DNA of 64,000 nucleotides from positions 310,001 to 374,000 of the forward strand of contig NZ_CAAHFH010000001.1 of NCBI RefSeq assembly GCF_900890705.1. Reading direction: 5' to 3'. Below, piece by piece: positions 44,085 to 59,547 of this stretch. This DNA is from Pontiella sulfatireligans (GTDB lineage: Bacteria > Verrucomicrobiota > Kiritimatiellia > Kiritimatiellales > Pontiellaceae). The notes under the pieces were generated by a model, which saw nothing but the letters and a program-made list of their open reading frames with translations, ran no database searches and had not been told where the DNA came from. Made by a program: the position numbers and the translations under genes. Position 1 is the first letter of the stretch; each line of letters begins with the position of its first letter.

Positions 44085-44960
44085 ATGCAAAAGATACTTA
44101 TCACAGGATCGAAGGGGCAGCTCGGAACCGACTGCCTCGATGTTTTCAAAGATGCTCCCGTTTTATTGGGGGTTGATCTGCCGGAGGTGGATCTGTCCGA
44201 CCGCTTCCCGTGTTTGGAAACGCTGGACCGGCTTCAGCCGGAGCTCATTGTTAATTGCGCCGCCTACACGGCGGTGGATGCCTGCGAAACAGATGCAAAC
44301 TGCTGGAAGGCAAATGCGGATCTGCCCGGGCACTTGGCTGAATGGACAGAGGCGAACAACGCTTTTTTGGTTCATGTCTCCACCGACTATGTTTTTCCCG
44401 GAGACAAGCCGCTGTTCGACGGCACGGTTGAAACAGACGAGCCGAACCCGATTTCTGAATATGGAAAATCGAAGCTGGCCGGCGAGCGGGCGATTGCGCA
44501 ACGCACCAAGCGGTTTGCCATCCTGCGCACGGCCTGGCTCTATGGCGCCCACGGGAATAATTTCCTGAAGACGATGCTGCGCCTCACGCTCCAAAATCCG
44601 GGCAAGCAATTCAAGGTGGTGGCCGATCAATACGGCTCGCCCACGTGGTCGTATACCTTGGCGCAGCAGATTCAAGCGGTGGCAGAAAAGCAGGCGACTG
44701 GAATTTTCCACGCTTCTTCAGAGGGGCATTGCTCTTGGTTTGATTTGGCGTGCGCCTTCTTGGATGAGCTGGCGGTTGAGCATAACTTTGTGTCTTGCAC
44801 GAGTGATGAGTTTTCAACTCCAACCAAACGCCCGGCTAACTCGATTCTTGAAAACGCGCACGCCAAGGAACTGGACATGAATGTATTCAGGGATTGGAAA
44901 GACGAACTTAAATTATTTGTTCAGCAGAATGCAGGTGCGATCTTAAAAGAGTATTCCTAG
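44085..44960 (+). CDS. rmlD: dTDP-4-dehydrorhamnose reductase
   Basis: 291 residues of the extended SDR family: ILITGSKGQLGTD, NCAAYTAVD, STDYVFPG and YGKSKLAGE (catalytic Tyr and Lys), RTAWLYG. It catalyses the last step to dTDP-L-rhamnose. It is separated from rmlBAC by 473 bases that contain a broken four-helix-bundle gene and word-like repeats, so an originally compact rml operon may have been split. Confidence 0.95.
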   Translation: MQKILITGSKGQLGTDCLDVFKDAPVLLGVDLPEVDLSDRFPCLETLDRLQPELIVNCAAYTAVDACETDANCWKANADLPGHLAEWTEANNAFLVHVSTDYVFPGDKPLFDGTVETDEPNPISEYGKSKLAGERAIAQRTKRFAILRTAWLYGAHGNNFLKTMLRLTLQNPGKQFKVVADQYGSPTWSYTLAQQIQAVAEKQATGIFHASSEGHCSWFDLACAFLDELAVEHNFVSCTSDEFSTPTKRPANSILENAHAKELDMNVFRDWKDELKLFVQQNAGAILKEYS

Positions 44961-45004
44961 TGCTTTGTCCTTAGTGCCTTGTTTTTCAATTCCACGGTGA
45001 AAAG

Positions 45005-45112
45005 ATGAAGATTGAAAAGTTTGAAGATATCGAAGGCTGGAAAAAAGGGAGGGAGCTTGCATCGGTTGTATACGGATTCTCGCGCCGGCCGGATTTTTTA
45101 CCACATGAATAG
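45005..45112 (+). pseudogene. Truncated four-helix-bundle (23S-IVP family) gene
   Basis: 35 codons read MKIEKFEDIEGWKKGRELAS then VVYGFSRR and stop. The first 27 residues are the usual N-terminus of four-helix-bundle/IVP proteins; the remaining 80 or so residues, including the IPSNIAEG signature, are gone. It is flanked by related words in opposite orientation: CTTTGTCCTTAGTGCCTTG upstream and GACTAAGAACAAGAGACTAA downstream near 45240. Confidence 0.75.
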
Positions 45113-45433
45113 GGAGTGAATAACGACCCATTCACCAGAGGCACTGAGTTTGTTAAGGTTCTTTTTCTCCGAGCCTCCATGCCTCTAGCGAAGCGGGTGG
45201 TGAAATACCAGTCACTTAATTCGTGACTATGTTACTAGAGACTAAGAACAAGAGACTAAGGAGGAGCTTGCAAAACCTCTGGCTTTGCTGTTCCGGTTAC
45301 TGGTTGTCAGTTATTCGCTATCAGGCAAAACCCATTCGTCTGCAGTGTGTAACACCGATAACTAATAACAATTAACTGATAACTGCCGCTCAAAACCGGG
45401 AGGTTTTGCAAGTGGCTCTAAGGACTAGTTATT
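45113..45433. repeat. Word-like repeat tract before rmlB
   Basis: No gene is seen in about 320 bases. The tract holds several quasi-palindromic word runs: GAGACTAAGAACAAGAGACT near 45238, GGTTACTGGTTGTCAGTTAT near 45295 and its inverse type ATAACTAATAACAATTAACT near 45358, and AAACCTCTGG...GGGAGGTTT. The last also repeats CAAAACC on both sides. Confidence 0.6.
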
Positions 45434-46513
45434 ATGAAAAAAGTGATCGTTACAGGCGGTGCAGGATTCATTGGATCAGCGGTTTGCCGGCATTTGGTGA
45501 AGGATAAAGAATGTTCTGTACTGAATCTCGACAAGCTGACCTATGCCGGCGTCCCGGAGTCGCTGAAAGAGATCGAAGACAGTCCGCTGTACCGTTTTGA
45601 AAAGGCCGATGTTTGCGACAAAGCCGCGGTGGCCTCGATATTTGCAGACTATCAGCCGGATGCCGTGATGCACCTTGCCGCGGAGTCGCACGTGGACCGT
45701 TCGATCGACGGCCCGTCCGCGTTTATTGAAACCAATATTGTCGGCACCTACAACATGCTGGAGTGCGCCCGCGAATATTGGCAATCGTTGCCTGAAAAAA
45801 CATCAAACTCCAAACTCCAAACCCCAAACCGCTCAGAATTCCGCTTCCATCATATTTCCACCGATGAAGTCTACGGCTCGCTGGGCGCCGAGGGGTTGTT
45901 CGAAGAAACCACATCCTACGATCCGCGCTCGCCGTATTCGGCCAGCAAGGCTTCGAGCGACCACTTGGTGAAGGCTTGGTTCCACACCTACGGCCTGCCG
46001 GTCGTGATCACCAACTGCTCGAACAACTATGGGCCTTATCATTTTCCGGAAAAGCTGATCCCTCTGGTGATCCTGAATGCGCTTGATGAAAAGCCGCTAC
46101 CCATTTATGGGAAAGGCGATCAGATCCGCGACTGGCTGTATGTGGAAGATCATGCGCGCGCTTTAGTGACCGTGGTGGAGAGCGGCAAGCTCGGCGAGAC
46201 CTACAATGTGGGCGGTCGCAATGAGCGCACCAACCTAGAAGTGGTGGAAACGATTTGCGTCATTCTCGACGAGCTCCGTCCGCGTGGCGAAGGATCCTAC
46301 AAGGATCTCATCACTTATGTAGCGGACCGTCCCGGGCACGATATGCGCTATGCCATCGATGCCACGAAGCTTGAAACCGAACTCGGTTGGAAGGCGCTGG
46401 AAAATTTTGATACCGGCATCCGCCGGACGATTCAGTGGTACCTCGACAACGATTGGTGGTGGCGCCCGATCCGCGAAGACCGCTATTCCGGTGAGCGTTT
46501 AGGGACTAAATGA
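45434..46513 (+). CDS. rmlB: dTDP-glucose 4,6-dehydratase
   Basis: 359 residues: [15 protein letters not shown] (NAD site), [22 protein letters not shown] and [12 protein letters not shown] with catalytic Tyr and Lys, [14 protein letters not shown]. It makes dTDP-4-keto-6-deoxyglucose. Residues about 121-135 ([15 protein letters not shown]) are an insertion before the conserved [11 protein letters not shown], encoded by the word-like run AACTCCAAACTCCAAACCCC. The stop overlaps the ATG of the next small gene. Confidence 0.95.
45800..45836. repeat. Word-like insertion inside rmlB (AAACTCC class)
   Basis: TCAAACTCCAAACTCCAAAC continues into CCCAAACC. The same words occur in fcl (50029-50060, 50730-50750, 50858-50880) and, inverted, before the four-helix-bundle gene at 49644-49663. 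Confidence 0.75.
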
Positions 46514-46683
46514 TCAAGAAAACCGCTAGGGTTGGGCAGGTACTTCAACAGGATGACTTTCGTAGGAAAGACATGTTGTGCATGAGTCCCGCGGAGCGGA
46601 TTAAGGCATTGATCGTAGCTCGAGATATGGCGTTTGACTATAAGCCGCTTAAAAGGGTCGCCTGTATTCGAAAACTGGGCTGA
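46510..46683 (+). CDS. Small protein, possible antitoxin partner of the nucleotidyltransferase
   Basis: 57 residues ([20 protein letters not shown], then a [20 protein letters not shown] helix region). It overlaps the rmlB stop (ATGA), and its own stop overlaps the nucleotidyltransferase start (TGATG). The pattern of a short basic helical protein directly before an AbiEii-like nucleotidyltransferase suggests a toxin-antitoxin pair; the family is not recognised and this is inference. Confidence 0.6.
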
Positions 46684-47150
46684 TGTATTTTTCGGAGGAC
46701 ATGAAGGAGCTTGTTGAGCTGTTCAACAAACATGGCGTGGACTTTGCCGTTTGTGGTGGATTCGCGGTGGCTCATTATGGATTCGTTCGAATGACCATGG
46801 ATTTTGATTTGCTGGTTTTACCCACTGCAGCAAATGCAGCAAGGATCATGATGGCGCTAACCGAATTTGGATTTGGGAATGCTGGCTTCTCTGAAAAGGA
46901 TTTTCAGTCCCAAGGCACAGCGGTCACGCTGGGTGAGCAACCAAACCAAATCGATTTGCTGACTTCCATGAGTTCGCAATCTACGGCCGATATTTTAGAC
47001 CAAGCAGCATCTGTTCAAATGGAAGGCATGAATATGAAAGTAGTGGGCTATAAGGATTTGCTCGCGGCTAAGCAAGAGGCAGGTCGAGTAAAAGACAAGC
47101 TTGATGTGGAAGAGCTCAAAAAAATAAAGGGGCAAGGGGGCGAACTATGA
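46683..47150 (+). CDS. AbiEii/DUF6036-like nucleotidyltransferase
   Basis: 155 residues with a nucleotidyltransferase core: [20 protein letters not shown] followed by DFDLLVLP gives the G-G-x-A...D-x-D pattern, and NQIDLLTSM may hold the third acidic residue. Similar proteins act as toxins that modify tRNA or as orphan cargo. It lies with its small partner inside the rml operon, with ATGA-type overlaps on all three junctions (rmlB, partner, rmlA). Confidence 0.75.
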
Positions 47151-48019
47151 AAGGCATTATTTTAGCAGGTGGTTCAGGAACGCGGTTGTATCCGCTGACG
47201 CAGGTCGTGAGCAAGCAGATGCTGCCGGTGTACGACAAGCCGATGATCTATTATCCGCTCTCGACGTTGATGCTTGCCGGCATTCGCGATGTGCTGATCA
47301 TCAGCACGCCCCACGATCTTCCCATGTTTAAAACGCTGTTAGGCGATGGATCAAAAATTGGTATGAACTTCAGCTATGCCGAACAACCGAGCCCGGACGG
47401 TCTCGCGCAGGCGTTCATCATTGGCAAGGAATTCATTGGCGACGATTCCGTTGCGCTGGTGCTGGGCGATAATATCTTCTATGGGCATGGTTTTCAGAAT
47501 ATGCTTGGGAACGCTTCGGCCAGCGATGCCGGAGCAACGATTTTTGCTTATCAGGTGGTTGATCCGGAGCGCTACGGCATTGTTGAGTTTGATGAAAACG
47601 GCAAGGCGCTGTCGCTTGAGGAAAAACCCGAAAAGCCTAAGTCCAATTTTGCCATTCCCGGACTCTATTTCTACGACAACCGCGTGGTTGAAGTTGCTGA
47701 AAACATGAAACCTTCTGCACGTGGCGAGCTGGAAATTACCGATGTGAACAAGCAGTATCTCGAATGGGGTGAGCTGAACGTCCAAAACCTAGGCCGTGGA
47801 TTCGCCTGGCTCGATACCGGCACGCACGACGCGATGCATGAAGCATCCAACTATGTTGAAACCATCGAGAAGCGGCAGGGGCTTAAGATTTCCTGCATCG
47901 AAGAGATTGCTTATCGGCTGGGCTATATTGATAAGGAGCAGCTAGTTGTTTTGGGCAAGGTCATGGAAAAGAACAACTATGGGCAATATTTGCTTCGTTT
48001 GGCGGAAGGATTGATCTAA
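47147..48019 (+). CDS. rmlA: Glucose-1-phosphate thymidylyltransferase
   Basis: 290 residues, canonical: [20 protein letters not shown] (nucleotide loop), [24 protein letters not shown] (metal Asp) and [14 protein letters not shown]. It makes dTDP-glucose from dTTP and glucose-1-phosphate. The ATG overlaps the nucleotidyltransferase stop, and its stop shares a base with the rmlC start. Confidence 0.97.
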
Positions 48020-48561
48020 TGGAAATGGTTGATCTGGCAATTCCTGACGTGAAGTTGTTGAAGCCCCGCAGGTTCAATGACGGCCGTGGCTTTTTTCAGC
48101 AAACTTTCCAGCAGCTCCAGTATGCCGAAGCAGGAATTAATGTGCAGTTTGTTCAGGACAACTGGTCGCGTTCGTCGAAGGGGGTTCTGAGGGGCCTGCA
48201 CTACCAGCACGAGCATTCTCAGGCCAAGCTGGTCAGCGTGATGCGCGGCGAGGTGTTCGATGTGGTCGTGGACATGCGGCGCAGCTCTCCAACCTTTGGC
48301 AAGTGGGTGGGTGAAATCCTTTCGGCGGAAAACGGGCATCAGTTATTTGTGCCCAAGGGCTTTGCGCATGCTTTTTTGGTGTTGAGCGATGTGGTTGATT
48401 TTATCTACAAGTGCGACGACTATTACACCCCGGGCGATGAGTACGGCGTTATTTGGAATGATCCAGAGGTTGGAATTGAGTGGCCGGATGCCGGCATCCC
48501 ATTGGTTTCCGAAAAGGACGAGGTGTTGCCGACGTTTGCGGTTGCAAAGTATTTTGACTGA
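48019..48561 (+). CDS. rmlC: dTDP-4-dehydrorhamnose 3,5-epimerase
   Basis: 180 residues of the RmlC cupin family: [23 protein letters not shown] (catalytic His), [16 protein letters not shown], and [10 protein letters not shown]. It epimerises the keto-sugar between the RmlB and RmlD steps. It is one base overlapped with rmlA and 20 bases before gmd. Confidence 0.96.
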
Positions 48562-48581
48562 TAAGAAATAGGAGTAGGATA

Positions 48582-49634
48582 ATGAAAAAGGCATTGATTA
48601 CAGGAATTACGGGGCAGGACGGGTCTTATTTGACTGAGTTGCTGCTGGCTAAGGGCTATGAAGTGCATGGCATCATCCGCCGGGCGAGCACCTTCAATAC
48701 GCATCGCATCGACCACCTCTATCAGGATCAACTGGAAGGGCATTCGCAGATGATCCTCCATTACGGCGACATGACCGACTCGAGCAACTTAAACCGGTTG
48801 ATCGAAAAGATTCAACCGTCGGAAATCTACAATCTCGCCGCGCAGTCGCACGTTCAGGTTTCGTTCGAGGTGCCGGAATACACCGCCGAAGCAGATGCCA
48901 TCGGAGTGTTGCGCATTCTCGACGCCATCAAGGAGACCGGTATTGATGCTCGATTCTACCAAGCCTCCACTTCTGAGCTCTACGGACAGGTGATGGAAGT
49001 GCCACAAACCGAAACCACGCCGTTCTATCCGCGCTCTCCCTATGCCGTGGCCAAGCTGTATGGCTTTTGGATCGTGAAGAACTATCGCGAATCCTACGGA
49101 TTGCACGCCAGCAACGGCATCCTGTTCAACCACGAGTCACCGCGACGCGGTGAAACCTTTGTTACCCGCAAGATCACCATGGCCGTTGCCCGCATTTCGC
49201 GCGGTCAGCAAAAGTGCCTCTACATGGGCAACATCAATGCCCGGCGCGATTGGGGCTATGCGCCCGACTATGTTGAAATGATGTGGATGATGCTTCAGCA
49301 GGAAACGCCCGACGACTATGTGGTGGCTACAAACGAAATGCACACCGTTCGCGAGTTCATCGAAAAATCATTTGCGCGTGTAGACATCGAAATCGTGTGG
49401 GAAGGCGAAGAGGTGAATGAAGTCGGCAAAAACAAAGCGACCGGCGACATTGTTGTTCGGATGGACGAGCGCTATTATCGCCCCTGTGAAGTTGAACAGT
49501 TGCTCGGCGATCCGTCCAAAGCCAAGCGTCAGCTCGGCTGGGAACCCACGGTTAAGTTCGAGGAACTCGTTCAAATCATGACCGACGGCGACCTGAGGTT
49601 GTTGGATGACCCCAATTATGAAGTTGGATTCTAA
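48582..49634 (+). CDS. gmd: GDP-mannose 4,6-dehydratase
   Basis: 350 residues: [17 protein letters not shown] (NADP site), [35 protein letters not shown] and [10 protein letters not shown] (Tyr, Lys). It makes GDP-4-keto-6-deoxymannose, which Fcl converts to GDP-L-fucose. GTAGG-type sequence lies before the ATG. Length and motifs are normal and it carries no insertion. It is separated from fcl by a four-helix-bundle gene. Confidence 0.96.
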
Positions 49635-49643
49635 TCGATTCCT

Positions 49644-49663
49644 GTTTGGTGTTAGGAGTTTGG
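49644..49663. repeat. Left inverted repeat of four-helix-bundle unit 2
   Basis: GTTTGGTGTTAGGAGTTTGG. Its inverse matches CCAAACTCCAAACTCTCAAC at 50031-50050 at 16 of 20 positions, so the four-helix-bundle gene between them is bordered by inverted repeats. The repeat also supplies the AGGAG ribosome site of that gene. Confidence 0.75.
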
Positions 49664-49664
49664 T

Positions 49665-50009
49665 GTGAGTGATTTCAAAGATCTAGAGGTCTGGCAAAAA
49701 TCCATAGAGGTCGTTGCTGAAATCTATCGTATTTCTTCAGGTTTTCCTGATTCGGAGAAGTTCGGGCTTACTAACCAGATAAGACGGGCGGCGGTCAGCA
49801 TCCCGTCGAATATTGCAGAGGGCAGTGCTCGTCATCACTCAAAGGACTTCATTCACTTTCTTCGGATTGCGGATGGTTCGGCTGCGGAAGTTGAAACACA
49901 ACTAATTATAGCTAATAAACTGGGATATGAGGATTCGGAAGAAAACATGGATGAGAAACTGGTTGTTATTCGAAAAATGTTAGCTGGATTGATTAAATCT
50001 TCGAGGTAA
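49665..50009 (+). CDS. Four-helix-bundle protein (23S rRNA intervening-sequence protein family)
   Basis: 114 residues, starting with GTG after AGGAG. It has the family signature (LEVWQKSIE near the start, FGLTNQIRRAAVSIPSNIAE then a GSA step, and FLRIADGSAAEVETQL). The fold is that of IVP proteins encoded in 23S rRNA intervening sequences and of the Avd protein of diversity-generating retroelements; it binds nucleic acid in Avd. Here it is not in rRNA but lies between gmd and fcl, bordered by inverted word-like repeats. It is the only intact copy of three in the window. Confidence 0.88.
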   Translation: MSDFKDLEVWQKSIEVVAEIYRISSGFPDSEKFGLTNQIRRAAVSIPSNIAEGSARHHSKDFIHFLRIADGSAAEVETQLIIANKLGYEDSEENMDEKLVVIRKMLAGLIKSSR

Positions 50010-50015
50010 AACATC

Positions 50016-51254
50016 ATGCGTTGCACTACTCCAAACTCCAAACTCTCAACTTTAAACCCCATCCCGCGCGATGCGCGGATCTATGTGGCCGGCCACCGCG
50101 GTCTGGTGGGAAGCGGCATCTGGCGTGCGTTGGAACGGCACGGCTACACCAACTTGATCGGCAAGTCGATTGACGAAGTCGATCTGATCAACCAGCAGTC
50201 GGTCGAAGATTTCTTCGCGGCCGAAAAGCCGGACTATGTGGTGCTCGTTGCCGCTAAGGTGGGGGGCATCGTGGCCAACAGCACCTACCGCGGTCAGTTT
50301 ATCTACGAAAACCTGATGATCGAAATGAATGTGATCCATGCGGCTAAAGTGCATGGGGTGAAGAAGCTGCTGTTCCTCGGATCGAGCTGCATCTATCCTA
50401 AGCTGGCGCCTCAGCCCATGAAGGAAGAGCATTTGCTCACTGGACCGTTGGAGCCGACCAACGAGCCGTACGCCATAGCCAAGATTGCCGGCATCCGCCT
50501 GTGCGATGCGTATAACCGTCAGTATGGAACCAACTTTATTTCAGCTATGCCCACCAACATGTATGGGCCGGGCGACAACTACCACCCCGAAAATTCGCAT
50601 GTTTTGCCGGCCTTTATCCGCCGCATGCATTTGGCGAAGGCGCTCATGGACGAGGACTGGGTTGGTCTTAAAAAGGTTTATAGTCGCGAAAAGGCACAAA
50701 AAAAAGATTTGGTTCTTCAATCTTCAGACACCAAACCCCAAACTCCAAACCAGACCGAGCTTTTGGATTGGCTAGGGAAATCCGGTATTCAACAACTCCC
50801 CGCGAGCGAAGCGACCGATAATGTGCATGAGCACATAAAGACCAATGGTCTTGGTTCAACTCCAGACTCAAAACTTCAAACTGCCCTCAAATGCTGGGGA
50901 AGTGGATCGCCTTTGCGGGAATTCCTCTACAGCGACGATCTGGCCGAGGCCTGTGTTTTCCTGCTGGAAAACATCAGCTATGCCGATTTGGCCTTCGAGG
51001 ATGACTCCGGCACCGTGCAGTCGCATGTCAATGTGGGGTCCGGTGCGGAGGTCACCATTAAGGAGCTCGCTGAAACCGTGAAGGAAGTCGTTGGCTATGA
51101 GGGCGAGATTGAGTGGGATGCCGCCAAGCCTGACGGCACGCCGCGCAAACTGATGGACTCCTCGCGTTTAATATCGAAGGGTTGGAGCCCGCAGATCGAC
51201 ATGCGCGAAGGCATCGCACTCGCTTATAAGGATTTTCTCTCCCGATATGCTTAA
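50016..51254 (+). CDS. fcl: GDP-L-fucose synthase with repeat-derived insertions
   Basis: 412 residues, about 90 longer than typical. SDR core: [40 protein letters not shown] (Tyr, Lys), [11 protein letters not shown]. It makes GDP-L-fucose. The first 14 residues ([15 protein letters not shown]) come from a word-like repeat, and no other ATG precedes the conserved start, so the repeat supplies the start codon. A loop around 225-290 (with [10 protein letters not shown] and TPDSKLQTA) contains two more repeat copies before the conserved [12 protein letters not shown]. Bacteroidetes homologues also have a longer loop here, so part of it may be native. Confidence 0.92.
50029..50060. repeat. Word-like repeat forming the 5' end of fcl (right arm of unit 2)
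   Basis: CTCCAAACTCCAAACTCTCA then ACTTTAAACCCC. It is the inverted partner of 49644-49663 and encodes residues 5-15 of Fcl. Confidence 0.7.
50730..50885. repeat. Two AAACTCC-class repeats inside fcl
   Basis: ACACCAAACCCCAAACTCCA near 50729 and AACTCCAGACTCAAAACTTC near 50859 lie in the same reading frame at both ends of the long Fcl loop, coding TKPQTPN and TPDSKLQT. Confidence 0.7.
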
Positions 51255-51459
51255 AAAACGGTTATTTATAGCTCATCAACTGAACCGGCATTGCCCGCGC
51301 CTGTGAGGCTTTAATACCTCCTAAACTTGTGTCGTGACGCTAAGCAAGTTTTACTTTCTAGCAAAATTTACTAAAAATAAGATTCATTTTTCTTTGTTGG
51401 CACAATCCTCTGTTGTTAGTCTGCCTTTCTAAATCGCAAAGGCATCAAGGGAGGTAAAG

Positions 51460-52212
51460 ATGAAGAAGGTGTGTATTGTTTCGTTGGCGGCAATCTGGCT
51501 GGCAGGCGGCGTTGGAGCTGAAACCGTTGTTTTTCAGACGAACAGCGAGTTTCCTACGACTGGGGAGTTCATAGAAGGCGCATTTGATGAGGCTATAACA
51601 ACCAACGTTGCGGAAATCGCCGGGCTTCTGGTGTCGGCGCGAACGGGAAGCACAAACCATCAGATTAACGCGAATGGATACAGTTTGGGGATTAACAACA
51701 AGCTTACCCCGGTTGATGCGGAGGAACGCTTTGAGGCGGGCGAGTCGCTTTTTCTTTCCTTCAGCAAGGATGTCGAAATTTCCAAGCTGGACTTCAGGAA
51801 TTTTGAGTTGGATGAAACCTTCACGCTTTCTGTTCAGGGAAAAGCTGCGGTTGTCATTCTCGGGAGCAGCCTGGACAACTTATCTCAAGACTATATATGG
51901 ACCAATATTTCGGTAGGTGCGCATACGGATATTGAATTCTATACAACAGAAGATGGCGAAATCGGTTTGGACTCCATGGATCTCACGGTCGCCGAAGGAA
52001 CAGACGAGCTGATTCTGTCATTCGGCAGTTCCAATGGGGTTTCCCAAATCGCTGTAGATTTAAATGGAGCGGCCGCGACCAACTATGTGCTGCAACGCTG
52101 CGACGATCTGGCTTCCAATGATTGGAAGAGGGTGTCCACGTTCTGGACCGATACCAACTGGGTGGTTGAAGCAACCAACAATAGCGGTTTTTACCGTGCT
52201 GTCGTTGATTAG
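51460..52212 (+). CDS. Secreted hypothetical protein, paralogue of the PEP-CTERM neighbour
   Basis: 250 residues with a signal peptide (MKKVCIVSLAAIWLAGGVGA). Residues about 21-165 parallel the next gene product: TVVFQTNSEFPTTGEFIEG against MIVFEGVDASTVTTGDLLEG, INANGYSLGINNKL against LNANNDYFGINSDI, and EFYTTEDGEIGLDSMDLTV against EFYASSGSIGIDSMNVEM. Instead of PEP-CTERM it ends in a domain with VLQRCDDLASNDWKRVSTFW and NNSGFYRAVVD, a C-terminal pattern I associate with secreted verrucomicrobial and kiritimatiellal proteins. Preceded by an AT-rich 200-base gap that should hold a promoter. Function unknown. Confidence 0.7.
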   Translation: MKKVCIVSLAAIWLAGGVGAETVVFQTNSEFPTTGEFIEGAFDEAITTNVAEIAGLLVSARTGSTNHQINANGYSLGINNKLTPVDAEERFEAGESLFLSFSKDVEISKLDFRNFELDETFTLSVQGKAAVVILGSSLDNLSQDYIWTNISVGAHTDIEFYTTEDGEIGLDSMDLTVAEGTDELILSFGSSNGVSQIAVDLNGAAATNYVLQRCDDLASNDWKRVSTFWTDTNWVVEATNNSGFYRAVVD

Positions 52213-52226
52213 GCAGGGGGCGCGTC

Positions 52227-52874
52227 ATGGACAACTCAAAAAGCAAGGGCCGGTACCGCATTGTTGGGCGGCTAGCCATTTCAATAGCCCTTTTTTCGAC
52301 GGTTGGATCAATCTACGGAGAGATGATTGTTTTCGAAGGCGTGGATGCCTCGACCGTAACCACAGGTGATTTGTTGGAGGGCGTGTCCAATGTTTGGATT
52401 ACCAACACGGTTCAGGAATTCTCTGGCCTAGAAATGCGTGCGCGATCGGGAAGCGGAACTCAATCGCTCAATGCCAATAACGATTACTTTGGTATCAACT
52501 CTGATATTGCAGGAGAAGATTCAAGAGCTTTCGATGTCGGCGAGACTATGTTTCTTTCCTTCGACCAAAGCGTGCGCATTGATCGGATTGATTTCAATCT
52601 TTTCGACAGCGGAGAAACATTTACGGTTAAGATTTCAGGGATGGATGCTGTGGCGATCAGGTGGGATGACCTTTCTCAGCAAAATCAGGATTATATTGAT
52701 TTTGCTGAAGGCCTGGAAGTTGCCGCCAATGTGAAAATCGAATTTTACGCATCTTCAGGATCGATTGGCATAGATAGCATGAATGTTGAAATGATCCCCG
52801 AACCGGCCGTAATGAGCTTTATTGGGTTGACCGGCTTTGGGCTTTTGGTCGGTAGGCGTTTGGTTGGGGTTTAG
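52227..52874 (+). CDS. PEP-CTERM-sorted exported protein
   Basis: 215 residues. The N-terminal signal spans about 13-31. The C-terminus IPEPAVMSFIGLTGFGLLVG followed by RRL is a PEP-CTERM tripartite signal: the PEP motif, a membrane segment and a basic end. Such proteins are cut by an exosortase (not in this window) and released to the surface or exopolysaccharide matrix. The body is homologous to the preceding gene product. Position inside a polysaccharide locus agrees with the known link between PEP-CTERM proteins and exopolysaccharide. Confidence 0.85.
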   Translation: MDNSKSKGRYRIVGRLAISIALFSTVGSIYGEMIVFEGVDASTVTTGDLLEGVSNVWITNTVQEFSGLEMRARSGSGTQSLNANNDYFGINSDIAGEDSRAFDVGETMFLSFDQSVRIDRIDFNLFDSGETFTVKISGMDAVAIRWDDLSQQNQDYIDFAEGLEVAANVKIEFYASSGSIGIDSMNVEMIPEPAVMSFIGLTGFGLLVGRRLVGV

Positions 52875-52884
52875 ATGATGTAGA

Positions 52885-52908
52885 CCGGGGCGACGACCCC
52901 GGATTTTT
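52885..52908 (+). terminator. Rho-independent terminator after the PEP-CTERM gene
   Basis: CCGGGG-CGACGA-CCCCGG followed by ATTTTT. A compact GC stem with a T-run, 11 bases after the PEP-CTERM gene stop. Confidence 0.85.
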
Positions 52909-53097
52909 GCACAAATGATGATAAAAGCGTTCTGACCCTTTCGCCTAGCCATGCGCATGTCCTAATCACACTGCTGAAGCCTCCTGTCTCGAAAAAACCG
53001 GACTGGGCGGTTATTAAGCCCTTGCTGGGAAAGTTGAGTCTCCGGTGCGATTCCGTGAACTGGCAGCAAGGAATCCGGTCGGAGTGGAACTGAATTA

Positions 53098-53235
53098 ATG
53101 CGTTGCCTGCTCGATACCAACATCCTCATAGAGGCCGTTGGGAATTCTTCCCCGGCGGTTGCGGCGCTTGAGAAGGCTGTTGCTTCAGAGTGGGTTGGCT
53201 ACTCGGCCATCACTCGTCTGGAACTTTTCGGCTAA
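53098..53235 (+). pseudogene. Truncated PIN-domain (VapC-like) toxin
   Basis: 45 codons: MRCLLDTNILIEAVGNSSPA and later VGYSAITRLELFG, then a stop. The start is the PIN-domain N-terminus with the first catalytic Asp (LLDTNI) and the conserved Glu region (TRLELFG). The C-terminal two thirds are missing, cut where word-like repeat sequence begins (AACTCCGGCAAACTTAG). No intact antitoxin gene is recognised before it. Confidence 0.75.
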
Positions 53236-53557
53236 CGATCAACAACTCCGGCAAACTTAGCCCAAAGGACCAGGAACTAAGTACTAACCCTTCGACATTA
53301 AAAACATCCTGCTTCGTCAACTTGTAGATGCGCGGTTGTAATAGGCAGCTGGCTGTTATCTACGTTCCGTTCCTAAATCTTAACACCTATTTGTCCGCCG
53401 TAGCCTAAGATGTAGGAGGGAAACTTAACTCTGCACCTTTGGTACGGACTCTCAAATCCAAAACATCATTTTATAGGATCGAACCATTGCGCCCTTTTTG
53501 TCTCTTAAAACCTAAACCTTAAGCCCTCGTTGCCTTGCAACGTACCCGGAGAAACCT
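53236..53557. repeat. Word-like repeat tract before the UDP-sugar dehydrogenase
   Basis: About 320 bases without a gene. Runs such as GACCAGGAACTAAGTACTAA, CCTAAATCTTAACACCTA and CTTAAAACCTAAACCTTAAG belong to the CCTAAAACC/CTTAA word class also found at 57730-57890 and 58241-58377. Confidence 0.6.
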
Positions 53558-54979
53558 ATGAAAACAAACAACCCCCAGCAAACAACCGTCAACTTTGATT
53601 TGGGCAACGTTCAGATCGGTATCATTGGCCTCGGCTATGTCGGCCTGCCACTTGCCGTCGAGTTTGGAAAAAAGTTCCCGACCATCGGATTCGACATTAA
53701 CGAAGCGCGTGTGGATGAACTAAAGGGCGGAACCGACTCCACCCTCGAATGTTCCACCGAAGAGCTCGCATCCGCGAAGCATCTGGCCTTCACAACCGAC
53801 ATCTCCAAACTTCAAACCGCAAACTGCTACATCGTCACTGTTCCGACTCCCGTCGACAACTCCAACCGTCCCGATCTGACTCCGCTCATTAAAGCCAGCG
53901 AGACCGTTGGCAAGGTCATCTCGAAAGGCGATGTGGTTATCTATGAATCGACCGTCTATCCCGGCGCAACCGAGGAAGACTGCATTCCCGTTGTGGAAAA
54001 GGTTTCCGGTCTAAAATATATCTCCTCTGATCCCAGCCCTTCGCCTTCTGATCTCTGTCCTCCGTCATCTCTCCGAGCCGTAACGCTCTCCGAGCCGGAA
54101 GCTGACCTCTGCGCGCCTGAAGGCGCGGGTTTCTACGCCGGCTACAGCCCCGAACGCATCAACCCCGGCGATAAGGTTCGTCGCTTGACCAATATTGTAA
54201 AAATCACATCTGGCTCCACGCCTGAAACGGCTGACTATGTGGATGCACTCTATCGCAGCATCCTTACGGTCGAAACGCACAAGGCGCCGAGCATCAAGGT
54301 AGCGGAAGCGGCGAAGGTGATCGAAAACACGCAGCGCGACGTTAATATTGCTCTGGTCAACGAACTCGCCATGATCTTTAACCGCATTGGCATCGACACA
54401 CTCGATGTACTGGAAGCAGCCGGATCTAAGTGGAACTTCCTGCCGTTCCGTCCAGGGTTGGTTGGGGGCCACTGCATCGGGGTCGATCCATACTATCTCA
54501 GCTTTAAGGCGCAGCAAGCGGGCTACTATCCCGAGCTGATCTCAGCCCAGCGCCGGATCAACGACCACATGGGGCAGTTTGTGGTGGATGAAACCGTTAA
54601 GCTGATGCTCAAAAAGAAAATTACCGTCAATGGCGCCAAGGTTTTGGTGCTGGGTATAACCTTTAAGGAAAACTGCCCCGATGTCCGCAACACCCGCGTC
54701 GTCGACATTGTCCATGCATTCGAGGGATACGGTTCGGACGTCACCATCTACGATCCCTGGGCTTCTCCCGAAGAAGTTAACCGTGAGTATGGACTTACGA
54801 TTAGAGGACAGAAGACAGAGATCAGCGGACAGAAGTTCGACTGTGTAGTGCTGGCGGTTGCGCATGATGAATTTGCGGCAATGAGCGCAACGGATTTCAA
54901 AGCACTTTGTGCAGAACAAAACGTGATCTACGATATAAAAAATGTGCTGCCCCGAGAACTAGTGGATGCGCGTCTTTAG
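53558..54979 (+). CDS. Nucleotide-sugar (UDP-HexNAc) dehydrogenase, WbpO/TviB type, with insertions
   Basis: 473 residues. GIIGLGYVGLPLAVEFGKKF is the NAD-binding start; GGHCIGVDPYYLSFKAQQ holds the catalytic Cys; ITFKENCPDVRNTRV is in the C-terminal domain. The WbpO/TviB class oxidises UDP-GalNAc or UDP-GlcNAc-type sugars to uronic acids. Residues about 153-190 (PSPSPSDLCPPSSLRA and following) are an extra segment between KVSGLKY and FYAGYSPERINPGD, which adjoin in relatives. A smaller addition (RGQKTEISGQ) sits near 413-425. Both are coded by word-like repeats. Confidence 0.93.
   Translation: MKTNNPQQTTVNFDLGNVQIGIIGLGYVGLPLAVEFGKKFPTIGFDINEARVDELKGGTDSTLECSTEELASAKHLAFTTDISKLQTANCYIVTVPTPVDNSNRPDLTPLIKASETVGKVISKGDVVIYESTVYPGATEEDCIPVVEKVSGLKYISSDPSPSPSDLCPPSSLRAVTLSEPEADLCAPEGAGFYAGYSPERINPGDKVRRLTNIVKITSGSTPETADYVDALYRSILTVETHKAPSIKVAEAAKVIENTQRDVNIALVNELAMIFNRIGIDTLDVLEAAGSKWNFLPFRPGLVGGHCIGVDPYYLSFKAQQAGYYPELISAQRRINDHMGQFVVDETVKLMLKKKITVNGAKVLVLGITFKENCPDVRNTRVVDIVHAFEGYGSDVTIYDPWASPEEVNREYGLTIRGQKTEISGQKFDCVVLAVAHDEFAAMSATDFKALCAEQNVIYDIKNVLPRELVDARL
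54030..54130. repeat. Word-like insertion in the dehydrogenase gene, forward copy
   Basis: 54055-54112 (CTGTCCTCCGTCATCTCTCC ... GCTGACCTCTGC) recurs in inverted orientation at 57267-57324 in a glycosyltransferase gene with 56 of 58 bases identical. It contains a tandem CTCTCCGAGCCG and is followed by a CGCGCCT/AGGCGCG hairpin. In frame here, reading DLCPPSSLRAVTLSEPEADL. Confidence 0.88.
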
Positions 54980-55024
54980 AACAGATTCTTTCGAAAATAA
55001 TTAATGGTTTAAAATGGTGTTGCT

Positions 55025-56212
55025 ATGAAGAAAATGAAAATAATGTCGGTTGTCGGGGCGCGCCCGAATTTTATGAAAATTGCGCCATTTGCTCATGAAT
55101 TGGTAAAGCACCCTGATCAATTTGAGCACTTTCTTGTGCATACGGGACAGCATTACGACAAGGCTATGTCCCATTCTTTTTTCGAGTCGCTCAACATCCC
55201 GCATCCGGACGTTGATCTGGGCATTGGATCCGGCAGCCATGCTGAACAGGTCGGGCGCACCATGATTGAGTTCGAAAAGGTTCTGTTGGAGCAAAAACCT
55301 GACTGGGTGGTTGTGGTTGGGGATGTCAACGCAACCTGCGCATGCTCCATTACGGCTAAAAAGCATCACATTAAAGTTGCTCACATCGAAGCGGGGCTCC
55401 GGTCTTTTGATTTGCACATGCCCGAAGAGATTAACCGGATGGTCACCGACAGCATTTGCGACCTGCTCCTCACGCCGGACGAGTTTGCCAACGAAAATTT
55501 ACGCCGTGAAGGGCATGCCGAGTCGCAAATAAAATTTGTCGGTAATATCATGATCGACACTTTGGAGGCGAATCGGAATCAAGCGGCTGAGCTCGATTTA
55601 AATGAAATTATCCAGCGCAACTTGATTCCTCCAGATGTCAGCGGTCAGGCGTCAGAAGTCAGTACTGATTTTCGATCTCCAGTCTCCGACCTCTGTGAAA
55701 ATAGTTTCACTGTTCTCACCATGCACCGACCTTCAAATGTCGATAGCAAAGAAACCCTTGAGTCGCTGGTCCGACTGTTGATCGATAAAGTTTCCATTGA
55801 GATGCCGTTGGTTTGGAGTGTGCATCCACGCACCAAGAAAAACCTTCAGCGGTTTGGTTTATGGGATGAGGTCATGCAGTGTGCGAATATTATCCTGATC
55901 AATCCCGTCGGCTATCATGAAATGCTCAAACTTAATATGAGCGCAAAAATCATGCTGACGGATAGCGGTGGCCTGCAGGAGGAAAGCTGCGTGTTGGGTA
56001 CGCCATGCATCACCATGCGTGAAAGTACTGAACGGCCTGTCACGTTGGTCGAGCATGGAGGCGTTTCTGAGTTGACGGGGTCCGACCCCGAGGGAATCCT
56101 CGTTGCCTTTAAGCAGTTTTTAAATTTTGATCGTCGAGGGCACTTCCCGCGTTTGTGGGATGGAGGGACGGCCAAGCGAATTGTAAATGCGCTCCGCGAT
56201 GCAGGTTGCTGA
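55025..56212 (+). CDS. wecB: UDP-N-acetylglucosamine 2-epimerase (non-hydrolysing)
   Basis: 395 residues: VGARPNFMKIAPFAHEL, HTGQHYDKAMS, VVGDVNATCACS, HIEAGLRSFDLHMPEE and LTDSGGLQEESCVLGTP (substrate loop). It interconverts UDP-GlcNAc and UDP-ManNAc. Residues about 202-226 (VSGQASEVSTDFRSPVSDLC) are an insertion before the conserved VLTMHRPSNVD, encoded by word-like repeats. With the dehydrogenase upstream it would give a UDP-aminouronic acid such as ManNAcA. Confidence 0.94.
   Translation: MKKMKIMSVVGARPNFMKIAPFAHELVKHPDQFEHFLVHTGQHYDKAMSHSFFESLNIPHPDVDLGIGSGSHAEQVGRTMIEFEKVLLEQKPDWVVVVGDVNATCACSITAKKHHIKVAHIEAGLRSFDLHMPEEINRMVTDSICDLLLTPDEFANENLRREGHAESQIKFVGNIMIDTLEANRNQAAELDLNEIIQRNLIPPDVSGQASEVSTDFRSPVSDLCENSFTVLTMHRPSNVDSKETLESLVRLLIDKVSIEMPLVWSVHPRTKKNLQRFGLWDEVMQCANIILINPVGYHEMLKLNMSAKIMLTDSGGLQEESCVLGTPCITMRESTERPVTLVEHGGVSELTGSDPEGILVAFKQFLNFDRRGHFPRLWDGGTAKRIVNALRDAGC
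55632..55705. repeat. Word-like palindromic insertion inside wecB
   Basis: CAGCGGTCAGGCGTCAGAAG followed by TCAG, then the inverse-type words CTCCAGTCTCCGACCTCTG. The vocabulary (GTCAGAAGTCAG, GACCTCTG) overlaps that of the dehydrogenase and glycosyltransferase insertions. Confidence 0.65.
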
Positions 56213-56494
56213 CCGTTGCGAGCTCTCAACACCTTCGCCCTTCATAGATTGATGGGGCTTATGCAGTAATCCAATCAGCCCATTAACCTAAACAGGGAAA
56301 TGGAACCACGGATGAACTCAGATGGACACTGATTGCCAATGAGATATGTTGCCTAAGGCACTCACTTGACGGAGTAATTCAGACATTTACCTATCTATTT
56401 CTGTTATCCGAGTTTATCGGTGGCAACAACTCCCGTCTGGTCGTTCTTTTGCGGTTCATTTCCGTTCTCAGGATTAAGCGTTCGATCTCATTTA

Positions 56495-57730
56495 ATGAAT
56501 GATCCAAAAATATTTTTTGCAGGGTGTTTGGATGCTGATCCGTATTTTTGTCTGAAGCAATGTGACAGAACGATTGTGTCGGAGTTGGGGAGTTGGGGAG
56601 TAAAGGTGAGGGAGCTGCATAAAGAACTTCCGCCCGGGAAAGTTTTCAGAAAGATTAACCGGAAGGTGCTTTATCCCGCTCTTGTTGCAAAAGCAACGAA
56701 GTCGTGTGTTCTAAACAGGATAGATGATTACGCATTACGCAATACACATTACTCATCACTTTTACATATCAGTTCCCAGTGCTACGCTAACCTAATACCT
56801 AAATCCAGCATCCCTACGACGATCACGGTTCACGATGTTGCAGAATTTGACTACCCGGAGGGGTATACCTCTGCACAGCTAAGGCGATGGGAAACACGAA
56901 TTGAACAACTAAAGAATGCAGAACTTGTTTTCACCGTGTCGGATTTTACGAGGCAAGAGCTAATTAAGAAAACTGACGTTTCGGCAGAAAAGATCATCGT
57001 CAATCCCAATGGAATTGACTGCGGGTTTAGAGTTCTTGATGAATCAGAGATTTTAAATTTGTCACGAAACCCGCTTGGCACCAGGCATAAGGTAGTAGGC
57101 ACTAGGGCGAAAGAACTGGTGAATGGGGCGCTAGAAACTCGGTTCTTGGTTCTGGCTGCCGGCAGTAACATTTACCGGAAAAACCTTCCAACGCTTTTCA
57201 AGGCCGTAGAGGAGTTAGGGCGTAGGGGAGTGCCGGTGACGCTTGTGAAGGCGGGGGAGCCGATAGGGCAGAAGTCAGCTTCCGGCTCGGAGAGCGCTAC
57301 GGCTCGGAGAGATGACGGAGGACAGAGGACAGAGAGGCGTGGGCTGAAGACGGTGTTACATGGAGTGGAGATTATTAACCTCGGGTTCGTTTCTCAGACC
57401 GAGTTAAATACGCTCTACAACCTATGCGACGTCCTGGCTTTTCCTTCGTTCTATGAAGGTTTTGGCATGCCGGTTGTTGAGGCGCAGCTGTGCGGACTGC
57501 CTTGCGTAGTATCGAATGCGTCCTCATTGCCGGAAGTCGGAGGGGATGGGGCTCTGTATCACGACCCAGCGGATGCGGATGCGCTGGCCGATCAACTAGA
57601 GCGTGTTTATAAAGATAGGCGCCTGCGAGGTGAGCTTCAGGAAAAGGGATTCAGTAATGCGGAACGTTTTTCATGGGGTAAGCATGTCGATATTTTGCTG
57701 AAAGGATTTCAGCGGGTTTTAGGAAATTAG
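56495..57730 (+). CDS. Glycosyltransferase family 4 protein with three repeat-derived insertions
   Basis: 411 residues from the ATG at 56495; the frame extends 25 codons upstream without support. GT4 features: TVHDVAEFDYPEGYTSAQL, IVNPNGID, FVSQTELNTLYNLCDVLAFP and SFYEGFGMPVVEAQLCGLP (nucleotide-sugar E-x7-E region). It moves a sugar to the growing polymer. Word-like insertions sit near residues 77-90 (ALRNTHYSSL), 190-210 (PLGTRHKVVGTRAKEL) and 257-277 (SASGSESATARRDDGGQRTE). The last is the inverted copy of the dehydrogenase insertion. Confidence 0.88.
   Translation: MNDPKIFFAGCLDADPYFCLKQCDRTIVSELGSWGVKVRELHKELPPGKVFRKINRKVLYPALVAKATKSCVLNRIDDYALRNTHYSSLLHISSQCYANLIPKSSIPTTITVHDVAEFDYPEGYTSAQLRRWETRIEQLKNAELVFTVSDFTRQELIKKTDVSAEKIIVNPNGIDCGFRVLDESEILNLSRNPLGTRHKVVGTRAKELVNGALETRFLVLAAGSNIYRKNLPTLFKAVEELGRRGVPVTLVKAGEPIGQKSASGSESATARRDDGGQRTERRGLKTVLHGVEIINLGFVSQTELNTLYNLCDVLAFPSFYEGFGMPVVEAQLCGLPCVVSNASSLPEVGGDGALYHDPADADALADQLERVYKDRRLRGELQEKGFSNAERFSWGKHVDILLKGFQRVLGN
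57260..57336. repeat. Word-like insertion in the GT4 gene, inverted copy
   Basis: 57267-57324 is the reverse complement of 54055-54112 with two mismatches. It is followed by GAGGACAGAGGACAGAGAGG. Read in the opposite direction it is still open and in frame, giving an entirely different peptide from the one in the dehydrogenase. Confidence 0.88.
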
Positions 57731-57889
57731 GGTTTAGGCGTTAAGTGGGGGTTAAGAAGAAGATTGTTTTAGGTGGTTATGTATTAGGAATTAAGACCGC
57801 CCTGCCTATAACCTAATGCTTAAAACCTAAAACAGATTTCTTCCTAAAACCTAAACACTTAATTCTTAAATCAGGAGCCGAGGGCGACT
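57731..57889. repeat. Word-like repeat tract before the third four-helix-bundle gene
   Basis: Runs GGGTTTAGGCGTTAAGTGGG and, inverted, CCTAATGCTTAAAACCTAAA and TTCCTAAAACCTAAACACTT. Its last part (57843-57869) is the inverted partner of 58241-58260, so it borders the four-helix-bundle gene on the left. Confidence 0.7.
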
Positions 57890-58245
57890 ATGTACCAATC
57901 ATTTGAAAACTTGGAGGTGTGGAAAGCTTCGTTGGAGTTAAGTGTTACGGGGTTTATGCCGAATTGAAGAAATGCCGGGATTATGGCTTCAAAGATCAGA
58001 TCTGTCGTGCTTCAGTGAGCATTCCATCTAACATTGCCGAAGGCATGGAACGTGATTCCAAGAAAGAAACGATTCACTTTCTGCATATTGCAAAAGGATC
58101 CTGTGCAGAAGTTCGAACCCAATTGCATATTGCTTCTAAAATTGGATACATAGAAAAGCAAGTTGTGGATGAGTTGCTAAATGTTGCCGAAAGCATCTCC
58201 CGCATGCTCCATGGTTTAATTAAGTCCCTCGGGGGCCGGAGTTAA
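57890..58245 (+). pseudogene. Frameshifted four-helix-bundle (23S-IVP family) gene
   Basis: The first frame (ATG 57890, AGGAG upstream) reads MYQSFENLEVWKASLELSVT, then runs into a stop at 57965-57967. The rest of the protein continues in another frame as VYAELKKCRDYGFKDQICRA, SVSIPSNIAEGM and HFLHIAKGSCAEVRTQLHIA. Extra G bases near 57949-57952 (ACGGGGTTT) explain the shift. Without it the protein would be about 118 residues, like the intact copy at 49665-50009. Confidence 0.82.
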
Positions 58246-58377
58246 GTGTTATGTTTTATGTGTTAAGCGGAATCCTAATTCCTGCCAATTAGTTCCTAAA
58301 ACTTAATGCCTAATCACTTAAACCTTCGCCAACGGGCTCTCTCCTAATCCTTAAAACCTAACACTTAAAACTCTCTT
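58241..58377. repeat. Word-like repeat tract after the third four-helix-bundle gene
   Basis: GTTAAGTGTTATGTTTTATG pairs in inverted orientation with the tract to the left of the gene. Further on come inverse-type words (CCTAAAACTTAATGCCTAAT, CCTTAAAACCTAACACTTAA). The last directly precedes the next glycosyltransferase start. Confidence 0.65.
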
Positions 58378-59547
58378 GTGAACCGCATCCTAATCATATC
58401 GCCATGTTCTGGAGTGGGCAGCGGTGCAGAAATCGTTCTGGAAGAATTATTGAAGGCCTGGACGCCTGAGGATCTGCAACTCGTGTTGTTGGCTCCCGAA
58501 GGAAGCCGCCCTCATGACGCGGCAAAAGAGTCAGACATTGAGTGGCACGACCTTTCGATTAAGAAAAACGGTTTGCACATGCTGGATAACTTGCGGGCTG
58601 TAAAAGCCGCATGTGAATCCATACCGAAGTGCGATGTGGTGTTGTCTTGGACCATCCGTACCTTCCCAGCATCGGAATGGTTGGGCAGGCAATGGACGGT
58701 TCCATGTGCCGGCGTATTGCACGACAATCCTTTTCCCCGGAAAATGCATGGCCCGGTTCTATGGAATCCGCGGGGAATGGATTTTAAACGTCTTTGTTCC
58801 TGGAAAGAAATGCTCTGGCATAGTCAGGAATATGTTTTGCGGACGTGGTGGCGTTGGCAATGGGCGCATAGGGTTGCAAATCGTTTTTCAAAATTGGTCT
58901 GTGTCAGTGAAGCCGTTCGTCAGGAATGCATTCGAAACGGATACAGGTGTCCGATGACCGTCATCAGAAACGGTCTGGTGGATATTCCTGTAGGAGATGG
59001 GATTCAAGATGGGAAATTGCGCATCGGCTTCTTAGGAATGGAGCATCCGCATCGGAAAGGGTTTTCGGTTGTTGAACAATGGATTTCCCGATTAACGGGT
59101 GATGTTGTGTGGAAGCTCTATGGAGGCGCATCGAAAAGTACGGTCAGACGCATCGAAAAACTAAAGAAGCAGTATTCAATTGAATACCGTGGTTTTCAGG
59201 ATCGAACGGCCATATTCAAGGAAATCGATGTCTTAATGCACGCCAGCACTTTGTTTGATCCGCTTCCAACTGTTCTGATCGAGGCAGCGCGGGCGGGCAT
59301 TCCATGTGTGGCTTCCTCTCAGGGTGGTGCTTCGGAAATAGTAGAGGAAGAAGTTAGTGGAAGTATTTTTGATCTGGATGAGACCGATGTGGGGTTGGAA
59401 AAGCTCAATGCCCTGTTCGATTGCGGGAGGCGGGAAAGAATGGGAAGGAACGCCCGGAACCTTTTTGGAGAACGATTTCGGGTGGAACGCATGGCACAGG
59501 AATACCTGCTGTTTTTCACATGCCTCATAGGTGGTAAAAATACCTAA
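58378..59547 (+). CDS. Glycosyltransferase family 4 protein
   Basis: 389 residues, GTG start. Two Rossmann halves: the N-terminal one with ILIISPCSGVGSGAEIVLEE, and the C-terminal one with LRIGFLGMEHPHRKGFSVVE, VWKLYGGASK and LFDPLPTVLIEAARAGIPCV (the E-x7-E type donor site). It is cytoplasmic or membrane-associated and adds a sugar to the repeat unit. No insertion is seen in this gene. Length is normal. Confidence 0.87.
   Translation: MNRILIISPCSGVGSGAEIVLEELLKAWTPEDLQLVLLAPEGSRPHDAAKESDIEWHDLSIKKNGLHMLDNLRAVKAACESIPKCDVVLSWTIRTFPASEWLGRQWTVPCAGVLHDNPFPRKMHGPVLWNPRGMDFKRLCSWKEMLWHSQEYVLRTWWRWQWAHRVANRFSKLVCVSEAVRQECIRNGYRCPMTVIRNGLVDIPVGDGIQDGKLRIGFLGMEHPHRKGFSVVEQWISRLTGDVVWKLYGGASKSTVRRIEKLKKQYSIEYRGFQDRTAIFKEIDVLMHASTLFDPLPTVLIEAARAGIPCVASSQGGASEIVEEEVSGSIFDLDETDVGLEKLNALFDCGRRERMGRNARNLFGERFRVERMAQEYLLFFTCLIGGKNT

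Follow-up and report, generated by a model that had tools for sequence, protein, structure and literature searches.

Rickettsia palindromic elements are palindromic DNA segments found in frame within protein genes, and the short tandemly repeated repetitive (STRR) sequences of cyanobacteria are heptamers. We describe here a unit with likenesses to both in a 64,000-nucleotide stretch of the Pontiella sulfatireligans genome (contig NZ_CAAHFH010000001.1, positions 310,001 to 374,000; we call this whole stretch the window): a gene for a small four-helix-bundle protein of family PF05635, standing between inverted arrays of short, word-like repeats. Pfam titles the family '23S rRNA-intervening sequence protein', and the intervening sequence (IVS) of 23S rRNA is among the closest described systems; in that of Coxiella, three tandem heptamers lie just upstream of the start of the S23p gene (PMC4990558). 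REPIN/RAYT systems (PMC3116915) have short inverted repeats around a gene and many gene-less copies. TAACTGA heptamers occur in Beggiatoaceae, Cyanobacteria and Bacteroidetes, and for their spread 'no mechanism is evident', in the words of MacGregor 2015 (PMC4679880). Furthermore, a relation between PF05635 and Avd is stated in PMC10053308, and PMC8700078 lists four-helix genes that only one Arthrospira strain possesses, in line with mobility. The unit described here is probably a small cassette, mobile now or until recently, with word-array ends and accompanied by gene-less derivatives; movement, binding of the words and the DNA or RNA nature of the moving form are what we infer from the evidence below.

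Like the 23S rRNA IVS, the unit has a PF05635-family gene between inverted repeats, but it sits amid protein genes, and its ends are word arrays in many element-specific vocabularies, or dialects. With Rickettsia palindromic elements it shares insertion in frame in protein genes, but here the inserts are word arrays with protein-linked dialects and a gene-bearing form exists. Compared with REPIN/RAYT it lacks a Y1 transposase, has tandem 7-nt words instead of one hairpin and encodes a four-helix protein. STRR and TAACTGA heptamers are likewise 7-nt tandem words, but the descriptions of them that we consulted mention no partner gene. Finally, the Avd protein of diversity-generating retroelements is a homologous four-helix protein (NF033474 gives 20.7 bits, far below its cut-off of 80), but none of the genome's 9 matches to the reverse transcriptase profile PF00078 lies inside the window, and such a match is absent from 31 of the 51 genomes with PF05635 (the Pontiella genome counted among the 51).

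The original prediction, made from the letters of this DNA, held that three four-helix genes of the window, one intact, one frameshifted and one truncated (Table 1), are each bordered by inverted repeats. Inverted flanks were present at all three sites when the inverted-flank score was compared with 1000 dinucleotide shuffles (p 0.001-0.007 overall): p = 0.003-0.007 for the intact gene at 49665 and 0.001-0.005 for the truncated copy at 45005 (two flank sizes in each case), and 0.007 for the broken copy at 57890. At this last copy the direct flank match exceeds the inverted one (34 vs 26), each flank being, by eye, palindromic in itself. For the intact gene the predicted positions proved exact, GTTTGGTGTTAGGAGTTTGG lying at 49644-49663 and its inverse (16/20) at 50031-50050. 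A period-7 array was recovered blind on the right side of this gene, at 50023-50062, and the right array overlaps the beginning of the next ORF, the fcl-like one, at 50016. The gene stands between gmd-like and fcl-like ORFs, names that we presume for its two neighbours.

The window belongs to a genome of 7.4 Mb, in which a profile search found 13 PF05635 matches. These, together with 29 and 40 loci from a search table of relatives (58 genomes including our own, 51 with PF05635) and a named set of 80, gave 162 loci. The named set is the best 80 of 581 confirmed matches and is biased towards relatives of the window gene. The 162 loci contained 184 ORFs with a profile match, of which 14 were dropped for a low profile score, a short flank or identity, leaving 170 distinct genes flanked by 150 nt or more on either side. 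Left and right flanks matched as inverted copies with a score of at least 30 in 82 of these 170 genes, compared with 0.9% of mispaired flanks, and 20 of the 170 reached that score in direct orientation. The gene's own right flank ranked best of all 170 for 68 genes, and when ranked against the 169 other right flanks it gave p <= 0.05 in 115 genes and p <= 0.012 in 79. The score of 30 was reached by 33 of 80 genes from relatives and our own genome and by 49 of 90 in the named set, and strong pairs adjoin genes of Bacteroidota, Geobacter, Clostridia, Chloroflexi and Omnitrophota; an archaeal locus (L084, Methanophagales) scores 33. Among ordinary genes of our own genome, 8 of 227 reached 30, four of them with a single ORF length of 1245 nt that probably marks an insertion sequence, and among 30 PIN-domain genes of the relatives used above none did so. 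The layout with inverted word-like repeats around a four-helix gene is general, and such flanks are commoner near four-helix genes than near either kind of control. As to whether most four-helix genes lack them, the answer depends on the cut: at the strict score they are found in a minority (82/170), at p <= 0.05 in a majority (115/170).

In six further genomes of the phylum, chosen for TAACTGA arrays, 15 of 26 scorable genes had inverted flanks (200-nt flanks; 4 of 30 genes were too near a contig end). Evidence from the TAACTGA side is mixed, given the array sites themselves (see below): PF05635 is present in all six of these genomes, and one four-helix gene (L331) stands between TCAGTTA words, with a total of three exact ones across its two sides. 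In our own genome most of the 11 four-helix loci viewed show inverted words by eye. One four-helix gene there (L008 and L012, C1:403018-403653) is, by eye, split in two by an insert with a GIY-YIG-looking short ORF, and another (L010) has CCTCGTCCTCG words as direct flanks (direct 99, inverted 25), each palindromic by eye, unlike the usual layout.

The flanks are built of degenerate words, mostly of 7 nt, in which some positions are fixed and others variable (on the right-flank strand, for example, TTCACTA-TTCACAA, CTATCGA-CTATTGA, CCTAAAG-TCTAAAG and CCCTGTT-CCCTGTC), and the dialect varies among elements. A strong 7-nt period marks 23.5% of the 340 flanks, whereas shuffles show it in 0.3% of cases and random background stretches in 0%; for an 8-nt period the figures are 5.3% of flanks and 0% of both controls. 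A strict filter found 3 period-7 arrays in the window and 0 in 400 kb of own-genome background; a looser filter gave 5 in the window, among them the right flank of the intact gene, and 3 in the background, so that arrays are denser in this sugar-gene region. Away from the gmd-fcl junction, protein identity and dialect were correlated after removal of loci with homologous distal flanks (r 0.162; the maximum of 2000 permutations was 0.111); this test supersedes a k-mer Mantel test made with those loci in place (r 0.34, p 0.001).

In the 82 strong pairs the matched arrays lie near the gene, at a median of 25 nt from the start and 18.5 nt from the stop. This closeness, together with the slightly positive net charge of the protein (median +2 in 161 proteins), would suit words that are operators, through whose repeated sites the protein controls its own gene and the neighbours. 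Arrays also follow the gene, sit in frame inside enzymes, and belong to whole units that differ between sister species, and we regard a purely regulatory role as very improbable.

The gmd-fcl junction provides the strongest evidence that gene and words form one unit and that such units turn over. We collected 30 loci from relatives with an fcl query and classed their states by reading. Eight had a four-helix gene 67-100% like that of the window ('type A', dialect CCAAACT), one of them with a broken frame and two without an upstream gmd match; five had a 'type B' gene with dialect CAACAACCAGC, and one more an internally deleted type B; two had a 'type C' gene with dialect TTTAACG/GTTGAAGG; and one had a fourth, broken kind. 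Two loci (L195 and L202, whose protein matches TIGR04256 and PF13366) held a GxxExxY gene between CGCAGAGACGCAG-type words and no four-helix gene, two (L206, L209) held words without a gene, and the remaining nine were short or held other sequence. The shortest gaps, of 26, 34 and 36 nt (L205, L212, L219), contain no words, and a longer gap of 105 nt (L194) contains words resembling those of GxxExxY elements. Near-empty junctions, of the kind that the original prediction proposed to look for in sister strains, therefore exist among these relatives, and presence and absence at one site, as in transposable elements, is observed. Two sister genomes whose fcl genes are 92% identical over 540 nt differ completely at this site, a GxxExxY element being present in G024 and one of type A in G027. 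No target-site duplication was obvious by eye at the junctions of the 14 closest pairs, of which the closest is only 92% identical.

The dialect at this junction follows the type of the resident gene. Only right-hand words were used, since some left flanks run into broken-frame four-helix coding sequence (e.g. L211). Pairs of one type from different host families had a similarity of 0.252 (24 pairs), those of different types from one host family 0.046 (60 pairs), a contrast with p = 2e-4 over 18 loci and p = 0.001 for types A and B alone. At the fcl-side end of four elements (L192, L207, L215, L217) short hairpins were seen by eye, similar in form and different in sequence (for example GGCATCC-CAAA-GGATGCC and GGCATTC-CGAA-GAATGCC), possibly a structure that marks the element's terminus.

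These findings bear on the possibility that the words are older intergenic tandem repeats, produced by slippage or kept as regulatory heptamers, in or beside which four-helix genes settle. Heptamer arrays without a nearby four-helix gene (16 of 16 TAACTGA sites examined) and arrays inside enzymes are what such an origin would give. Insertion into an array predicts direct flanks, yet inverted flanks prevail (82 versus 20 of 170 genes); furthermore, the shortest gmd-fcl junctions have no words, and one site holds different dialects depending on its resident protein. We consider this origin improbable.

The original prediction also took short repeats inside enzyme genes to be gene-less derivatives of the elements. 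In alignments of orthologues, in-frame word inserts occur in one loop each of fcl and of a protein that we take to be dTDP-glucose dehydratase-like (ORF 45434-46513), and many relatives lack them. We scored 26 filled loops against the words of other genomes only. At a cut score of at least 24, the type A dialect was found in 6 of the 7 rows that come from type A genomes (two of which supply two rows each) and in 1 of 19 rows from others; a permutation over all three types relating resident type to loop dialect gave p = 9e-4. The type A genomes, taken from the reading of the gmd-fcl junction, number eight and coincide with those whose matches reach at least 65%. For the dialect of the window gene the proposal is clearly supported, whereas types B and C fit it less closely. 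Where the fcl loop has two arrays, the inverted score was higher in 6 of 15 loops, the direct in 8, and the two were equal in 1, which gives no ground for an inverted arrangement there. More word-like in-frame inserts were noticed at 53980-54120 (by eye) and 55632-55700, in UDP-sugar dehydrogenase-like and epimerase-like ORFs.

Table 1. Four-helix genes, their flanking words and gene-less word arrays, in window coordinates
Feature	Position	Strand	Remarks
Left words of truncated copy, CTAGTGCTTTGTCCTTAGTGCCTTGTTTTT	44957..44986	+	
Truncated four-helix gene, first 35 codons only	45005..45112	+	likeness by eye; absent from the genome's PF05635 match list
Right words of truncated copy, ...GAGACTAAGAACAAGAGACTAAGGAGG	45210..45264	-	inverse match 44968-44986 / 45244-45262
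Gene-less inverted array, TAACTGA/TAACTAA-type words	45303..45383		p 0.008 by shuffles
Word array of 49665 dialect, in frame inside ORF 45434-46513	45803..45834	+	period-7, recovered blind
Left word array of intact gene, GTTTGGTGTTAGGAGTTTGG	49644..49663	+	
Intact four-helix-bundle gene (PF05635 / TIGR02436), 114 aa, GTG start	49665..50009	+	profile matches
Right word array of intact gene, ACTACTCCAAACTCCAAACTC...	50026..50062	-	16/20 inverse of left array
Word array of 49665 dialect, in frame inside fcl-like ORF	50718..50753	+	
Second run of 49665 dialect in fcl loop	50857..50890	+	by eye
Period-7 array of GTCAGAAGTCAG dialect, in frame inside ORF 55025-56212	55632..55666	+	
Period-7 array of ATTACGCATTACGC dialect, in frame inside ORF 56420-57730	56719..56764	+	
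Left flank of broken copy, TTAGG/CCTAA dialect	57725..57872		forward then inverse words, by eye
Broken four-helix gene	57890..58245	+	first frame stops after 25 codons; rest is a 108-aa ORF, 57919-58245
Right flank of broken copy, TTAGG/CCTAA dialect	58236..58377		forward then inverse words, by eye

The original prediction regarded the units as IVS-like, and the corresponding alternative to a mobile cassette is an intervening sequence acting in RNA: the arrays would pair in the transcript, RNase III would excise the element and the four-helix protein would act on RNA. The heptamers of the Coxiella IVS are a likeness in its favour (PMC4990558), and so is orientation: of 148 scorable four-helix genes, 116 share the strand of both neighbours and 8 run against both; either transcription matters or antisense copies are lost. 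The likeness to the 23S rRNA IVS was not supported in other respects. No rRNA match was found in the window or near the four-helix gene at any of 60 named loci scanned (all but L112-L131, 20 of the 80). Folding of the transcripts gave a divided answer, since the broken element (57725-58378) folds better than 20 shuffles (z -2.21) but the intact element does no better than shuffles (z +0.35). Complementarity between left and right arrays was no better inside an element than across genomes sharing the dialect, at 25.3 vs 24.4 for seven type A elements and 25.8 vs 24.8 for five of type B, so that the co-evolution of stems expected of an RNase III hairpin is not seen in these two sets. Moreover, excision from mRNA alone leaves the empty and filled DNA sites unexplained, and we judge an RNA-level intervening sequence unlikely.

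A second gene family shows a comparable layout. PF13366 (GxxExxY, PD-(D/E)XK) is present in 49 of the 58 genomes, and 21 of 30 GxxExxY loci (L252-L281) have inverted ends scoring at least 30, with 4.1% for mispaired ends. Their words, of about 8-9 nt by eye, lie near the stop codon (e.g. CTTCGTGTC-CTTCGTGGT; other end words are CTTCGTGTCCTTCGTGGTGAAA and CTTAGCGCCTTTGCGTC). The period test used for PF05635 found no period at any lag in these 30 loci, perhaps because the arrays are short. GxxExxY genes are co-directional with both neighbours in 22 of 27 cases and opposite to both in none. Within the window, a gene-less run of GxxExxY-type words, CTCCGAGCCTCCATGCCTCTAGCGAAGCGGGTGGTGAAATA, at 45165-45208 resembles by eye the end of one of these elements (L267).

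The protein encoded at 49665 matches PF05635 with 135.5 bits (cut-off 33.8) and TIGR02436 with 134.4 bits (cut-off 24), and in the Pfam search the gene between the arrays matches PF05635 only. Its best named match, from a Pontiellaceae bacterium, is 79% identical, and its structural relatives are 2gsc (E 2e-27) and 2rld. Across the 170 four-helix proteins, seven charged positions show at least 60% conservation. We propose that the unit would measure about 0.45-0.65 kb, with one four-helix gene between inverted arrays of degenerate, mostly 7-nt words that would form the ends of the element. The protein would read its own dialect by repeated contacts. Both structure entries have five chains, which makes a ring touching several words at once plausible, and the keeping of the motif rather than the stem points to recognition by protein. 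The element would insert between co-directional genes or into tolerant protein loops; loss of the gene would leave gene-less arrays, some of which a resident gene with that dialect may mobilise in trans. As an Avd-like end-binding protein, the four-helix protein would work with host enzymes or another partner, from which the chemistry would come, since a reverse transcriptase is seemingly not needed. Dependence on reverse transcriptase was in fact rejected for these relatives, on the 31 of 51 family genomes without PF00078, and a viral vehicle is unlikely, 7 viral loci having been confirmed in one scan.

Several observations weigh against a mobile cassette with its own dialect. The flanks of 55 of the 170 genes are not distinct at p 0.05, and our own genome is weak in this respect: the score of 30 is reached in 4 of 13 rows (L003, L005, L009, L011) but not by the window gene, whose score is 22, and values of 16-19, like those of controls, were obtained for L004, L013 and two rows of L008. 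A loose scan found 132 ORFs between period-7/8 words; 70 of them had a four-helix match and the other 62 had none. Many of the 62 are by eye antisense frames or neighbours, and the scan is no fair test of specificity because the loci were mostly chosen for four-helix genes or their neighbours. No four-helix gene was found at the 16 long TAACTGA array sites read, up to 1.5 kb on each side, at least one more such site being listed. At the gmd-fcl junction, inheritance of one insertion could explain the dialect shared within a type; elsewhere the link between dialect and protein is small, and composition accounts for part of it, as similarity in the wrong orientation also rises. Inside enzymes, of the six rows from type B genomes one matched B strongly, two did so weakly and one matched C strongly, and the two rows from type C genomes had no C match. 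In our judgement the 170 proteins have no obvious catalytic set, familiar nuclease or recombinase residues not being apparent. Finally, we saw neither an excision product nor a target-site duplication nor a new insertion.

Other repeat systems were noticed beside these elements. At one locus (L185) an ORF at 12175-12790 stands beside many GCAGCCTGAAGGCTGAACTACAAAC repeats, which extend to about 13340 and look REP/RAYT-like. At another (L190) three near-copies of a palindrome, GGTAAATCCA...TGACGATCGTCA...TGGATTTACC, lie around two ORFs (at about 8835-8875, 9690-9730 and 12155-12200).

In the open-licence PMC literature, with preprints outside its scope, we found no earlier description of word-ended four-helix cassettes, and a single paper there names 'GxxExxY protein'. 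Taken more broadly, the evidence leads us to suggest, with some reserve, a still unrecognised class of tiny mobile elements that is very widespread among bacteria and archaea. Their ends would be inverted arrays of degenerate 7-9-nt words in a dialect read by the element's own protein, and at least two unrelated partners, the four-helix protein and the GxxExxY PD-(D/E)XK protein, would replace one another at the same site; the elements and their gene-less offspring may be the source of many heptamer repeats, STRR and TAACTGA among them. If this is true, the large orphan family PF05635, named after rRNA although none of 60 loci shows any, would gain a role, heptamer repeats would have a cause, and the odd in-frame inserts in conserved enzymes would be explained. 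It would also provide a system where a degenerate word code evolves together with a very small protein.

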